A stretch of 64,000 nucleotides of DNA from Candidatus Nitrosocosmicus agrestis. Its GTDB lineage: Archaea; Thermoproteota; Nitrososphaeria; Nitrososphaerales; Nitrososphaeraceae. The notes below the pieces were generated by a model. That model was not told the DNA's origin, ran no database searches, and saw nothing but the letters and a program-made list of their open reading frames with translations. Shown in pieces: positions 36,056-55,902 of this stretch (position 1 is the first letter of the stretch; every line of letters starts with the position of its first letter). The DNA lies in the NCBI RefSeq assembly GCF_008389435.1, contig NZ_VUYS01000012.1, positions 1 through 64,000 of the forward strand, written 5' to 3'. Both the position numbers and the translations under genes were made by a program.

Positions 36056-37353
36056 GTGACTAATTTTATGACGAATCTATATTAAAAAGAAAAGGTGATT
36101 TTAAATATTGAGAATTATTGAATTGATATTTATGTGGATGGTCATTGATCCATTTTTATCTATACCTTGACGCTTTTTCTTCTAACATCTATCCCTCAAA
36201 ACACCAATTTTATACTTCATTATTTCATGGTAGTAAACCTCATCTACATCAGAGATAATAAGGACAATTGTGAATTTTATTTCGTTAATGCATAGTATCG
36301 ACTGTAATTTGTTGCTCTAATTTTAGAGTACAAATATTCTAGTACCTAAACGTAATCAAGCCTTTCGAGTATCTTATTTTATTGAGAATTCTTTAAATCT
36401 TTTGAGATTAAATTGGAAAGATTGAGGAAATTATTTGACGGCTTTATTTCCACTTTATATCATAAAATTATTATTTCATGGCATTAAAATTAAAGATAGG
36501 GTTTATGATATAATATTATTTTATTTTTAGGTTATTGAATGGTTAATCTCACCAGAATTCAAAATTATCTTTAATAACAAAGTAGTAAAGGCATTAATAA
36601 AGGTCTCAAGAGCCTCTCATGCTTTTGTATCTTTGTTTGTGCAAAAGAATGGTAAGACAGAATTGAGTGCTGTCAACAAGATTTTTTTTACAATTGTCAG
36701 GATATTCCTTTTAATGTGGTACAAGATTACCAAGACAATTATTCATTCTCTGTACTATGATTAAATACTTATCACATGAATGTAACCTTTACTACTTTCT
36801 CTTTCTTTTTCTTTGGTTTGTCGTTCTTAATGATCTCCTTGAGATGACTGACTGATTTTCAAGTCAAGGATCAGACCAGATTCATTCCTCCATCTGTCCG
36901 CACAGACTGGGATCTTATGATAGTAATGAATTGACCTATCTTTGTCAACGAGAGAATTATACTTATTCTTGACCTAGATTATCATTTTTTAGTCTGAGAA
37001 TAGATTTTCTTGTACTTTTTGCATCTATAACCATCTCATGTGTCGTGAATCAATACCATATTGTTCTACATTAACTAATGGAGACAGGTTCAAGACGACT
37101 ATGAATATGCTCAAAGCCTTGATTAGAAGGGTTAAGTGGACAGATGAAGGGTATGATATAAATACTGTGTACATCGCTATTAAAGCCTTTTAAAATCCTC
37201 TAAAAACATATCCAGAAAAAAATGGCCCTAGATATCGTTGACTTTTACACTATACGTAGGTCAATAATTGACGAAAGGAAAGATACAAATTTATGATTCT
37301 CAATCTAGAAAATTTTCAATTCATTTATATTTTTAAATTCTCCGATATCATCA
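36056..37353. other. Intergenic with a dispersed repeat shared with 51525-51917
   Basis: No intact gene. A stop-to-stop + frame from about 36533 to 36765 ('KVVKALIKVSRASHAFVSLF') lacks an ATG. The segment 36615-36983 shares three blocks with 51525-51917. An inverted repeat TGATCtCCTTGA / TCAAGGATCA lies at 36831-36842 and 36864-36873. Confidence 0.5.
36615..36983. repeat. Dispersed degenerate repeat, copy 1
   Basis: Three ordered blocks match 51525-51917: TCTCATGCTTTTGTAT (36615-36630, exact), ATACTTATCACATGAATGTA... (36765-36793, 27 of 29), and GACCTAGATTATC (36971-36983, 12 of 13). Spacing between the first two differs by about 95 bp between copies. In one frame both encode 'TYHM-x-V-x-FT', so this may be a remnant gene. 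Confidence 0.6.
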
Positions 37354-48200: not shown

Positions 48201-49157
48201 TTACAAAACTCCTGCAGCTCTTTTGGCCTGAATTTGATGCATCTCTTTATCTGTTTTTGCTGCTTTGATCTGCATTGTTTTGGTATGAACCAATAAAAAG
48301 AACGTTCTCTCTGATTTACTAGATACTTCCTTTAACATTCTGATTGTGTCCTGTTGTAGTTTGAAAACCTCAACTTTTTTGTATCCTTCCTTTGCAAGAC
48401 TTTCTCTATCTACATCTTGTAACAATACTCGATAATTGCTATTTTCTACATTGAGTCTCCTATCTTCCTCAGCCATTAAACCTCCTTTCACCTGATTGAA
48501 TTTCTTTGACCAACTTTCTGTTTGCTGTCTTGCTGTGTCTCTATCCTCTACTAATTGATTCATGGTTTGGGTCATCTCATCCATCCTTGCCTCCATTGCT
48601 CTAAACTCTGGAGATTTATCAGAGAGAAAAGCAGTAGTGGGAGTAGTAGGCTGTCGATGATGTTGTAGACCGTTTGCAGGGTTTTCCAAAGTCTCTTCTT
48701 TATCATCTGCAACTTCAATATCAGCCTCTTTTTTCATCTGTGAGAATGATTTTCCTCCGTATATTTCGTCTAGTGTATTTTCTGCATTTTGATCTGTTGT
48801 CTCACCGTTGTTAGTTACTAAAAGAGGTTTTTTCTGCTCCACTGTCACATTTGCGGCCCTAGGGCCGCAAATTGGATCCCTGACTTTGTTTGCATTTTTA
48901 TACTCGTCAGGGAGAATCTTTCTCACATATCGTTCCTTAATATCGTATTTATCAACATCCTTGCAAACTTGCACAAATAGTCTCTTTAGGATGTCCTGAT
49001 TCATCCAGAATTTTAGCAAGCCTTAGAATCTTGTCTTTTTGTTTCTCTAATAGTTAGTTGGATATTCGTCATGCTCTATCTCAATATCTCCCAAAATAGC
49101 GTCATATTCCATTACAAACTTTCTTTTGAATTCTGCTCGATCTGTTGTATCTGACAG
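48201..49157 (-). pseudogene. Element-encoded coiled-coil protein, N-terminus frameshifted
   Basis: The open frame 48201-49019 encodes 272 residues, but its first ~17 are out of frame with better upstream sequence. A perfect ribosome-binding site AAGGAGGTG (49169-49177, minus) precedes a CTG at 49157 that opens 'SDTTDRAEFKRKFVMEYDAI', 'LGDIEIEHDEYPTNY'; a shift gives 'EKQKDKILRLAKILDESGHP' and KETICA; a second shift near 48965 enters 'KDVDKYDIKERYVRKILPDE' of the main frame. The rest is a Gln/Glu-rich coiled coil ('MEARMDEMTQTMNQLVEDRD'). An ATG-to-CTG change plus two indels suggest decay. It follows the RHH and 83-residue genes in one operon. Confidence 0.7.
48849..48872. repeat. 24-bp perfect GC-rich palindrome
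   Basis: ATTTGCGGCCCT / AGGGCCGCAAAT, centred between 48860 and 48861, with no mismatch and no loop. Sixteen of its central bases are GC-rich in otherwise strongly AT-rich DNA. It lies within the coiled-coil gene and encodes ICGPRAAN. Confidence 0.97.
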
Positions 49158-50750: not shown

Positions 50751-51038
50751 ATGCAAAAATCAAATAGAATGAGTAAATCAAAATCTACTAAATCTCCCCA
50801 ATCAGACAAGAATAATAATAATGATAATGATGAAGATTATTACCTTAAAGACCATTACGATAATGTATTGTTGGTAAGAGACAATATCTTAAAGAAAGAT
50901 ATCGAGATTTTTATCAAGGGTGGACCACTACACTGCGACCACCATAATGAGGTTATGGGTTTTGGATGTAAACACATGAACTTTGTTCATTCATTAGATG
51001 AAGTTGAGAAGCTAAAGAGAGCAGGGAAGCTGAGGTAA
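50751..51038 (+). CDS. Small hypothetical protein with His/Cys cluster
   Basis: 95 residues. N-terminus is Lys/Ser/Asn-rich and disordered; the C-terminal half has 'LHCDHHNEVMGFGCKHMNFV' followed by HSLDEVEKLKRAGKL, a likely zinc site (C, HH, C, H). Coding character is good. Last gene before the stem-loop array. Confidence 0.6.
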   Translation: MQKSNRMSKSKSTKSPQSDKNNNNDNDEDYYLKDHYDNVLLVRDNILKKDIEIFIKGGPLHCDHHNEVMGFGCKHMNFVHSLDEVEKLKRAGKLR

Positions 51039-51072: not shown

Positions 51073-51212
51073 ACACAGGATAGATTACACGGATGGATCC
51101 ACCACCCCATGAAGGTATTGGTATAATCTATCCTGTGTCCGTAGAAACCGAATGGTTGAATATTCGGAGGATAAATAATGAATTTCATCAATTAAAGTTT
51201 TATCTTGATTAT
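51073..51212 (+). ncRNA. Stem-loop element A
   Basis: Perfect 15 bp stem ACACAGGATAGATTA (51073-51087) / TAATCTATCCTGTGT (51124-51138), loop 36 nt. Nine bases later a second hairpin CCGAAT / ATTCGG (51148-51153, 51162-51167). Then the tail TCATCAATTAAAGTTTT (51185-51201) and TCTTGATTAT (51203-51212). A TATA-like TATTATATATATA (51061-51073) precedes it. Orientation is assumed from the tail. No coding frame. Confidence 0.6.
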
Positions 51213-51234
51213 CAGATCATATATTATAGTAAAT

Positions 51235-51384
51235 ATGTGAGATGAACCTATTGTATATGAGCCTACGGAAAAGGATGAAGGTTTTTAGGTTCATCCCACA
51301 TTGGACATTTTATGACACTTGCAACTTCCCTTCTTTTTTAAAAGTTGCAGGGTAAGCTACGTTATCAACTATTAATGTTTTTTG
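51235..51384 (+). ncRNA. Stem-loop element B
   Basis: Stem ATGTGAGATGAACCT (51235-51249) / AGGTTCATCCCACAT (51287-51301), 14 of 15 paired, loop 37 nt that shares ATGAAGGT with the loop of A just before the 3' arm. Second hairpin GCAACTT / AAGTTGC (51321-51327, 51342-51348). Tail TCAACTATTAATGTTTT (51365-51381), 14 of 17 identical to A and E. Confidence 0.55.
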
Positions 51385-51524
51385 TTCGAAATGTAGCACC
51401 TTGGATAGGGTGAAAGCTAGATGATAATCAAAAAAAGGACTCCTAGAATTATTAAAGTAATAAGTAGCACAGAGAGGAAATGAGAATAGCAAAGGCGTCA
51501 ATTAGAAGTTCACATGGGGAACTT

Positions 51525-51917
51525 TCTCATGCTTTTGTATTCTTATTGCGCGTCTCAACGCAAGCACTTTTCTCATTTGGTAATGGTAGGATCAAATGAA
51601 GGTATGAGCGAATGAATAGACGTAGATGTGAGGATATGAATCCTTCTATTTTTTCCTTACCTTTGTGCAATCGTCATCACCGTGCTTTCAAATGAGGTAG
51701 TAGTATATTAGATGAATAAGCGATCGTCTGAATGCCTGATATTAGAGGAGTGGATCACTTTTTGTAACGATACTTATCACATGATTGTAGCCTTTACTTT
51801 TGTTCTACTTTTCTCTCTCTTTGCGTTCCAAGCTGTGTGGTACTTGTCTTGATACCCCGGAGATTAGGGCAAGAATTAATATGGTAAAAATATTATTTAT
51901 CAATGATCTAGATTATC
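51525..51917. repeat. Dispersed degenerate repeat, copy 2
   Basis: Counterpart of 36615-36983: exact 16-mer at 51525-51540, 27 of 29 at 51770-51798, 12 of 13 at 51905-51917. It lies between elements B and C. Function unknown. Confidence 0.6.
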
Positions 51918-51942
51918 TGTTCTTATTTTACAAGTGGAGAAA

Positions 51943-52048
51943 ATGGGGGATGAACCGCATGATGAATGAAAATCAATAGCCAATATGACAAAGCAGTAAT
52001 CATGGGCTCATCCCACATGAAATGAAGACAAATACATGCCACTTGTCT
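51943..52048 (+). ncRNA. Stem-loop element C
   Basis: Stem 51943-51963 / 51999-52018: ATGGGGGATGAACCGCATGAT against ATCATGGGCTCATCCCACAT, with one bulge and two mismatches; loop 35 nt. Second hairpin AGACAA / TTGTCT (52026-52031, 52043-52048) seven bases later. The conserved tail is not obvious in this copy. Confidence 0.5.
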
Positions 52049-52247
52049 TTGTATACACCTTCCCTGTCGAATGCATGCGTATTAAGGGATAGGTGCATAC
52101 GGTTGCTATTAATATGAAAATATAATATATGGATTAGTTAAAAGTCATATTGAAAAATATCAGTTATTCTTGTTTATATTTTAAATAATGGTTAATGAGA
52201 ACTGGGTGGCGAAATAAAATAAAATTTTTTAATTTCTAATAATATAC

Positions 52248-52409
52248 AGGATGGGCTTTGGTGCGGATCAAAAAAGGTATGGTAATACTTACTTTCAATG
52301 GTAGTTGATATGACCGGGCCACCACCCATCCTCACCGCATTGGACATATGACGTGAATTATTTTATGATAGTCTTACTACAATAATTAAATAAAGATTGT
52401 CTTGATTAT
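52248..52409 (+). ncRNA. Stem-loop element D
   Basis: Core stem AGGATGGG / CCCATCCT (52248-52255, 52325-52332), longer 69 nt loop with further partial pairing (TTGGTGCGG with CCGGGCCACCA). CATTGGACATATGAC after the 3' arm matches CATTGGACATTTTATGAC in B. Tail AATTAAA (52384-52390) followed by TCTTGATTAT (52400-52409), the latter identical to A. Confidence 0.45.
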
Positions 52410-52444
52410 TTGGATTGAGATTAAATCATTATGACAATGTTAAA

Positions 52445-52572
52445 AATACAGGGTGGATTTACTAGTAGGCAACCTAGTAAAGTACATTAGCATATCCACC
52501 CTGTATTCATCAGGTTCCGAACTAACTTATAGAACGGAAAGATAACCATAGCAATCATCAATTAAAGTTTTT
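52445..52572 (+). ncRNA. Stem-loop element E
   Basis: Perfect 14 bp stem AATACAGGGTGGAT (52445-52458) / ATCCACCCTGTATT (52494-52507), 35 nt loop containing its own hairpin TTACTAG / CTAGTAA (52459-52465, 52474-52480). Second hairpin TTCCG / CGGAA (52515-52519, 52535-52539). Tail TCATCAATTAAAGTTTT (52555-52571), identical over 17 nt to A and at the same distance from the stem (47 against 46 nt). Confidence 0.6.
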
Positions 52573-53366
52573 TGATAAAAGCATTGTACAAGTGAAATAA
52601 TATTCATCCAATACAAAATGTAGAGAAAGAGATCAGCAACTTGCCATTGTGCATAATTCGCAGTCAAACATTTCCTGATCTTCTTACATCTCCACATCTA
52701 CACAAAGAATGCTTGATTTGTTTTTCCCCTTGTTCAGTTGTAGATAGTCAAAGTACGTAAGAATTTTTAAGTATTTTGGTTATTATTTATTTTATTGTAT
52801 TTACACAGATCATTTTATATTAGAATTTTATAAAACCATGCCATGTTTTCAATTAATTATATTACAATTGGCAATGAACTAGAGTATTGACGATTGAAAA
52901 AAATGAAGATTAGACTAACGAATGAATCCTATTGTCCTAAACCAGTTCCATAATCTTATGGCCAACCAAACAGCTATGTTTCCACCTAAATTGAAAATGA
53001 TTCGGATGACTAGTTCTCGAAGGAGTTGTGATAAATAGTTGATCAAATTATAGTATCATAAAGTCTATTGATGAATTTACTTAAGAATAGTTAAAAGGAA
53101 GAAATGAAATGAAATATTTAAAAAATGTGGGATGGATTTAATCAAATTAAATATTGAAAGTAATAGTGGATTAGAACTTTATGAATCTTCAAAATGCTTG
53201 CTGCAGCCGATAATTTATAATAGTTACAGTGGCAATTGTTAATAGTTATTCTGTGACTTAGGTTACATTTTATCAAAATAGCATTGACTAACTTGATTAA
53301 TTATTGCTTTGCAAATACAAGTATTTCGATTTAGAATATTAAGAAGAGAAAATGAAAATTTTTTCA
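52573..53366. other. Intergenic right of the stem-loop array
   Basis: No gene and no further stem-loop of the A-E type seen. AT-rich. Confidence 0.4.
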
Positions 53367-54687: not shown

Positions 54688-55902
54688 TCAGATGCCCAAT
54701 TTCTCTCTGATCTCTGCTAACTCAAAACTCATTCTGGATAGATCACTCTCTCTTTCTTTGTAATAGTCTACCTGTTTTTGTAAGCGGTGCTCATTTGATA
54801 TTGTTAGAAGGTCAACTGCTTTAAGATATTCTTGTAAAATCTCTTCATCCTGGGGCTTGTAATAGACCTTATCTAAGCCTGTTGAATGGCCTACTAGCAT
54901 TTCCCTAATTGTCTTGTCTACCTTGGCTCTCTGCATTTGTGTTATTGCAAAAATACGTAAGGAATGACAGGGGTGTAGTTCATGTCTGATTTTGGGTGCT
55001 TCTTTCTGACTCATAGTTTCTGTTGTATGGATTTTTTCTCTGATTCCTAGTTGATGTAATTTATGGATTATAACTTTTTCAGTGATACTACTAGGTAAGA
55101 TAGATGTTTTAGATGAGTATAGTGCAGTATTAAGTTGTTTATTGAATTGTCTAATTATTAGAGCTGTATCTCCTGGAATCCAGTTGCCATTTTCATCTAT
55201 TTTTAATGATGATTCGCCATGTCTTTTTCTCATGTCCAAATATTCATCAATGGCTTTAGCAGTTTCAGGAGTACAAAATGTAAGATATTTTGATTTAGGT
55301 GAGTTACCATATACTGTTATTTGATAAATAAAGTCTTTTGTTGTATTTGCTATATTCCATCTCTTTAGGTGTTTTAATCTAATATGTGGTAAAGCTCCTA
55401 CTCGCATTCCTGTTGAAGCCATTAGTAATACACAGACTCTGCCTCGTTCATCTTGTAATGAGAGTAATTTAGAAATTTCATCTAGATTGTAAGGTCTGTA
55501 TTCTTGTTTGTTTTCATGCTCTCCTATGAATTTTGATATTTTTTTTCTATTTATGAGAACGTCATTAATAGTGAAAAAGTGAGAAAGTGCTGCTAGAAAA
55601 AGGGATAAAGAGGAATGGGATAAGCCCTCATTATCTTTCATGAATATCAGATGCTCTATAATGTCTGCCTCTAATTCTTTGGGATTAGTTTGCAGAATTT
55701 CATCTAGAGTTTTATTTTTGTATTGGGGTAAATTTAAGAATCTGTTTAGGTAAATCGAATATGCATCTTTGGTATATCTTGATCTCAAGGAATTTATAAA
55801 ATTTCGATATGCGAGATGATCCGTTACCTCGGGTCTAATCAGATTAAAAATGCTAGTTGTAAGTGAAGTGGAATTTTTCATAATATCTAGACTGTATAGC
55901 AA
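54688..55902 (-). CDS. Tyrosine recombinase / integrase
   Basis: 404 residues. N-terminal SAM-like core-binding domain (~30-130, 'YRNFINSLRSRYTKDAYSIY'). Catalytic residues: Arg in 'LMASTGMRVGALPHI' near 167, Lys in 'GNSPKSKYLTF' near 205, H-x-x-R in 'PCHSLRIFAITQM' near 312-315, His in 'LVGHSTGLDK' near 339, nucleophile Tyr in 'KVYYKPQDE' near 345. A C-terminal helix (~365-404) follows. This is the thaumarchaeal chromosomal-element type. It would integrate or excise the element; I could not find the att repeats. Confidence 0.92.
   Translation of the reverse strand: MLYSLDIMKNSTSLTTSIFNLIRPEVTDHLAYRNFINSLRSRYTKDAYSIYLNRFLNLPQYKNKTLDEILQTNPKELEADIIEHLIFMKDNEGLSHSSLSLFLAALSHFFTINDVLINRKKISKFIGEHENKQEYRPYNLDEISKLLSLQDERGRVCVLLMASTGMRVGALPHIRLKHLKRWNIANTTKDFIYQITVYGNSPKSKYLTFCTPETAKAIDEYLDMRKRHGESSLKIDENGNWIPGDTALIIRQFNKQLNTALYSSKTSILPSSITEKVIIHKLHQLGIREKIHTTETMSQKEAPKIRHELHPCHSLRIFAITQMQRAKVDKTIREMLVGHSTGLDKVYYKPQDEEILQEYLKAVDLLTISNEHRLQKQVDYYKERESDLSRMSFELAEIREKLGI

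Follow-up and report, generated by a model that had tools for sequence, protein, structure and literature searches.

In integron attC arrays, several imperfect hairpins follow one another close to a tyrosine recombinase. Archaea have intergenic small RNAs (itsRNAs) of 50-500 nt, such as Methanosarcina mazei sRNA154 (review PMC5867862). The Pyrococcus abyssi RNAs sRk48, sRk52, sRkB and sRkC are ncRNAs of repetitive loci that are related to an IS605 OrfB element (PMC3124441), and candidate structured RNA classes have been obtained by comparative genomics (PMC2864571). The literature that we searched held no report of small RNAs of such kind in Nitrosocosmicus or other ammonia-oxidizing archaea.

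We analyzed a window of 64,000 nucleotides (contig C5, positions 1-64000) from a 3.22-Mb archaeal genome of 43 contigs, in which the original prediction had placed five covarying stem-loops (A to E) in a gene-free stretch of an integrated element. By sequence comparison, two families, here called F1 and F2, were shown to be discrete conserved noncoding units whose helices are maintained by compensatory change. Both look like families that are absent from Rfam, as searches at gathering and permissive thresholds returned nothing relevant in the window or at the further F1 and F2 loci, and that are so far confined to Nitrosocosmicus. It is very probable that these units are structured RNAs, and the explanation that we favor, with less assurance, is that small structured RNA genes are clustered here, with F1 on the minus strand.

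Hairpins A to E and the F1 family

The cluster is flanked by a small-gene module, whose 95-aa gene (50751-51038, plus strand) adjoins F1 copy A, and by the tyrosine recombinase of the integrated element (54688-55902, minus strand), which has an integrase match in PHROG; both genes serve here as context only. A related element with homologous genes is found on contig C42 of the same genome. The 95-aa gene, which would be convergent with a minus-strand F1 gene A, is also part of the C42 element and is present in a broken version in a related species (G007). The C42 element (L031, G000:C42:130000-149900) carries a homologous recombinase (~69% DNA identity) with other cargo alongside. No att-type direct repeats were found to be shared by the recombinase end and the 38-52 kb part of the window, and the viral contigs searched contained neither an exact copy of the conserved F2 box nor a relative of the 95-aa protein. 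A perfect 24-bp palindrome, ATTTGCGGCCCT/AGGGCCGCAAAT, lies at 48849-48872 within a 272-aa ORF, and its core CGGCCCTAGGGCCG is retained in the C42 element.

All five stem-loops were found at the positions and with the pairing that had been claimed, and we assign them, as the likely reading, to the minus strand. F1 copy A (51073-51201, presumably read from 51201 to 51073) has stem1 at 51073-51087/51124-51138, a second hairpin at 51148-51167 and, in what had been described as a 17-nt tail, a reverse-strand BRE/TATA at 51185-51201. The same parts occupy 51235-51250/51286-51301, 51320-51349 and 51365-51382 in copy B (51235-51382), and 52445-52458/52494-52507, 52515-52539 and 52555-52571 in copy E (52445-52571). 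Copy C (51943-52085) is a diverged member with stem1 at 51943-51956/52005-52018, a second hairpin at 52025-52049 and a weakly recognizable promoter (TTAATA at 52080-52085); it scored 18.6 bits (E 0.2) against the F1 covariance model. Copy D (52248-52400) is the most diverged, with a short stem at 52248-52255/52325-52332 and a long loop. The F1 covariance model gave no match to D, whose weak assignment to the family draws on motifs in the sequence of its stem and tail.

When the whole 64 kb was scanned, six long hairpins (loop length at most 70 nt) passed the threshold, A, B and E among them. Fold z-scores were -2.9 (A), -2.6 (B), -1.0 (C), -2.7 (D) and -4.7 (E), so that C taken alone is unexceptional. 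The description of the stretch as gene-free holds for proteins, since the region from A to E has a single ORF of at least 60 aa, one of 63 aa on the minus strand that overlaps F2 and B, but F2 (51473-51806) and a third unit, R4 (~52590-52863), had been missed, and the set of elements is larger than five.

We searched for F1 homologues at the DNA level, by pattern and with a covariance model (R1), for which eight copies were used. In this genome, F1 is found on contigs C5 (A, B and E clear, C weak), C42 (A' and B'), C26 (two copies), C17 and C39, and homologues are present in three related species (G007, G009 and G017); a copy C' on C42 was identified by eye. The evidence for the family hence comes from four genomes, with C and D as weak members. 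A class-wide search gave one match outside the genus, which was marginal (G229, E 0.008). The covariation read directly from the five stems was also recovered: RNAalifold, run unguided on eight F1 copies, found stem1 with 9 of 13 pairs double-changed, and stem1 had 17 double-changed cells compared with 6.3 in shuffles, none of 500 shuffles being as high, although the copies are related by descent and neither these counts nor the strand counts given below are independent events. The second hairpin varies between types. Loop length ranges from ~20 to 60 nt and more, and the view of the loop as variable was overstated, since ACCTTCAT (reverse strand) recurs in the loops of copies A and B and of the copy in G007.

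The spread of F1 bears on whether the hairpins could be folded single-strand DNA sites, attC-like or origin hairpins, that serve the recombinase, as the original prediction had also allowed, or replication of the element. Several of them do lie close to a recombinase, with AT-rich conserved DNA alongside in the element, and a single-strand DNA fold would also be maintained by compensatory change. However, F1 copies are present where a homologous recombinase is not: the 20-kb stretch that holds the two C26 copies has no recombinase in its ORF list, none was found in the 3 kb read around the copies at C39 and in G017, and at C17 the nearby integrase is another protein, of 505 aa. Moreover, cassette-like ORFs are missing between A and E, and the promoter-like conserved block and the second hairpin lie outside the stem. 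We consider recombinase or replication sites quite improbable.

Another possibility is that the units are portions of neighboring mRNAs, such as 3'-UTR structures or terminators. At C5, C42 and G007, the 95-aa gene is followed at a short distance by F1, and at C26 and C39 a 137-aa gene precedes F1 in the same way, which speaks for such structures. However, in two genomes (G005 and G011) genes closely related to the 95-aa gene have no adjoining F1, and F1 as the 3' UTR of this gene was rejected because relatives of the gene occur elsewhere without it. The strands of genes neighboring F2 likewise show no clear bias (32 to 25), and we judge an origin in neighboring mRNAs improbable. The C39 locus (L086, G000:C39, ~860-1530) holds a diverged F1 copy in which an insertion sequence with transposase ORFs sits within the stem1 loop, and the 137-aa gene beside it is a paralogue of the one at C26.

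Probable promoter and strand of F1

The tail, TCATCAATTAAAGTTTT, is the same 17-mer in A and E and has three mismatches in B, as reported. Matches with up to three mismatches are not rare (4 in the window compared with 2.0 expected), so that the weight of this motif comes from its exact copies and fixed position. On the reverse strand, the T-rich tail is AAAAACTTTAATAG in several F1 copies. The archaeal BRE/TATA consensus is RAAANNTWWWWA (PMC3124441), and it is matched exactly on the reverse-strand tail in 7 of 15 F1 copies, including B, compared with ~2% of random windows. Most other copies have the TATA core in the same register, but in C, C' and D it is weak or missing. TTTAATA is among the 7-mers enriched ahead of start codons in these genomes. 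From the TATA center to the base of the second hairpin, we measured 24.5 nt in B, 24.5 nt in E and 26.5 nt in A, a spacing that matches the usual archaeal distance from TATA to transcription start; a promoter-to-start window of 15-30 nt was used in PMC3124441.

The stems and their folding lean to the same strand. On the minus strand, F1 stems have 12 G-U wobbles compared with 4 A-C mismatches, a weak excess (p=0.077), and the G017 copy has four G-U wobbles. MFE was lower on the minus strand in 11 of 13 comparisons (p=0.027), the fold z-scores leaned weakly in this direction (p=0.054), and T4-T5 follows directly after stem1 on the minus strand in several copies. Given the reverse-strand BRE/TATA together with the wobble and folding asymmetry, F1 genes are likely to lie on the minus strand, opposite to the strand that the original prediction had assumed. 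Its proposal of a structured-RNA family is upheld by homologues, by covariation and by identity above that of spacers and the adjacent gene, but its strand is probably wrong, as the tail resembles a reverse-strand promoter.

That orientation, with plus-strand structured RNAs and the T-rich tail as terminator, would fit the T-runs that close the tail on the plus strand and the raw MFE of F2, which is lower on this strand (p=0.017). It does not fit a reverse-strand tail that carries BRE/TATA at fixed spacing, nor F1 stems in which A-C exceeds G-U on plus and which fold better on minus, nor the region upstream of F2 on the plus strand, where no conserved motif was found. We regard plus-strand RNAs as unlikely, and for F1 the promoter and wobble results led us to abandon the tail as a plus-strand terminator.

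F2, R4 and conservation between elements

F2 (51473-51806, tentatively minus strand) lies between B and C and had been overlooked. A closing helix, P1, joins its two ends, and inside are a hairpin P2, helices P4 (TCATG/CATGA) and P3 (GTATC/GATAC), and a variable interior; the three helices other than P1 are named here from their sequences. Searches with a covariance model (R2, E up to 0.01) gave 90 matches in 11 of 15 Nitrosocosmicus genomes, at 2-13 per genome; 286 genomes of the class from outside the genus, scanned under stricter filters, gave no match. Exact copies of the F2 box in a collection of named genomes came from nine stretches, all of Candidatus Nitrosocosmicus. In an unguided MAFFT alignment of 20 copies, we counted 28 double-changed cells compared with 11 after shuffling; in 46 copies aligned to the model, an alignment that is guided and leans to structure, the counts were 110 and 32, with 23 of 31 pairs double-changed. 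A local alternative hairpin proposed by RNAalifold had no double changes and was rejected; the long-range P1 is preferred because it covaries.

A first impression from a few loci, that F2 is a 3'-UTR element, was not borne out over 60 copies. Some F2 loci have the same neighboring genes across species, an arrangement that counts against non-autonomous MITE or REP-like repeats whose inverted ends only resemble stems. Such repeats would be multi-copy and dispersed over mobile DNA and chromosome, as the copies are. However, there is no fixed terminal inverted repeat, the outer arms of P1 and stem1 vary and covary, and conserved blocks are located outside the arms, which makes repeats of this type very improbable. 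The window has a second F2 copy (36569-36801, minus strand) with a box of its own at 36960-36980 (minus strand, two mismatches), away from the RNA cluster of the integrated element. Tandem F2 pairs, ~300-350 nt apart and next to a small secreted-protein gene (MSIIKNKSMILAVV...), occur in three species (L142, L145 and L169).

A conserved box, AATCTAGATCATTGATAAATA, at 51894-51914 (minus strand) would be upstream of a minus-strand F2 and is a candidate promoter. The flanking motif AATCTAGATCAnnnATAAATA lies outside P1, its conservation being limited to the flank that would precede a minus-strand gene, and the box is not a canonical BRE/TATA in most copies. An excess of A-C over G-U on the plus strand (72 to 48) agrees with the minus strand. 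Raw MFE points the other way, z-scores show no strand difference, and T-run terminators after P1 do not differ between strands. With its strand signals in conflict, F2 may lie on the minus strand, less certainly than F1. F2-type boxes without an F2 core downstream were seen at L198 (G007:C1:155605), L193 (G006:C1:1722841), L195 (G008:C1:47860) and L203 (G008:C1:3335260); L198 and L193 are alike downstream of the box and perhaps represent another RNA family.

The third conserved noncoding unit, R4 (approximately 52590-52863, presumably minus strand), lies after E. It consists of a hairpin at ~52618-52697 and, beyond it, a conserved AT-rich segment whose minus strand carries the TATA-like ACTTAAAAA, and it recurs at C26, G007 and G009.

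Between C5 and C42, identity is 94.2% for F1A, 96.1% for F1B and 94.3% for F2, compared with 74.1% and 79.5% for the B-F2 and F2-C spacers. The 95-aa gene is 83.3% identical and the neighboring 83-aa gene 93.7%; the A-B spacer and the short stretch ahead of A are likewise well conserved. Because F1 and F2 are more conserved than the F2 spacers and the 95-aa gene, these values fit discrete units under selection, although the 83-aa gene is equally conserved.

Proposed RNAs and their relation to known systems

In the model that we favor, F1 would be transcribed on the minus strand from the BRE/TATA promoter formerly taken for a tail. The transcript would start ~25 nt downstream of the TATA, at the base of a 5' hairpin, continue over a linker to a long terminal stem that is capped by an apical loop, and end near the short U-tract of several copies, giving an RNA of roughly 100-150 nt. 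F2 would be a multi-copy RNA of 200-330 nt closed by the long P1 helix, probably also from the minus strand and starting from the box at 51894-51914. These RNAs might act as regulators that pair with mRNAs in trans through exposed loops, and their genes may be spread in part by the integrated mobile element. Trans-acting regulation by F1- and F2-type RNAs is a tentative reading that we favor on the model of intergenic sRNAs of other archaea, sRNA154 among them. ACCUUCAU is common to the loops of copies A and B and of the copy in G007, and we offer only as a suggestion that it might serve as a seed for pairing with AUGAAGGU-type starts. It is more speculative still that F2 represents a class of large, multi-copy structured RNAs that is specific to the genus and has AATCTAGATCAnnnATAAATA as promoter signature, and that mobile elements of ammonia-oxidizing archaea carry a cargo cassette of F1, F2 and R4 that acts on host mRNAs.

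Two covariation-supported families outside Rfam, one with ~90 copies across the genus, provide predicted transcripts that are directly testable. If the model is true, it would give access to regulation at the RNA level in a soil nitrifier of importance and would make RNA genes a cargo of Nitrosocosmicus integrated elements.

As in integron attC arrays, several imperfect hairpins stand in series by a tyrosine recombinase; unlike such arrays, the F1 cluster has no cassette ORFs, its conserved blocks extend outside the stem, and some copies have no such recombinase nearby. F1 and F2 resemble the RNA classes from comparative genomics in being defined by covariation, but they are limited, among the genomes searched, to one archaeal genus and have no Rfam match. 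With the repetitive-locus ncRNAs of Pyrococcus abyssi they have in common that they look like multi-copy structured RNAs, with predicted BRE/TATA promoters in F1, whereas no IS605 OrfB gene lies beside the F1 or F2 copies examined. Archaeal itsRNAs differ in that F1 and F2 are multi-copy and partly on a mobile element, and the likeness drawn here is one of features rather than of sequence or structural relationship. By those features, F1 is intergenic, would fall in the 50-500 nt range, has its own predicted BRE/TATA-like promoter and is predicted to fold into more than one stem-loop, with a conserved secondary structure in stem1, as archaeal itsRNAs do.
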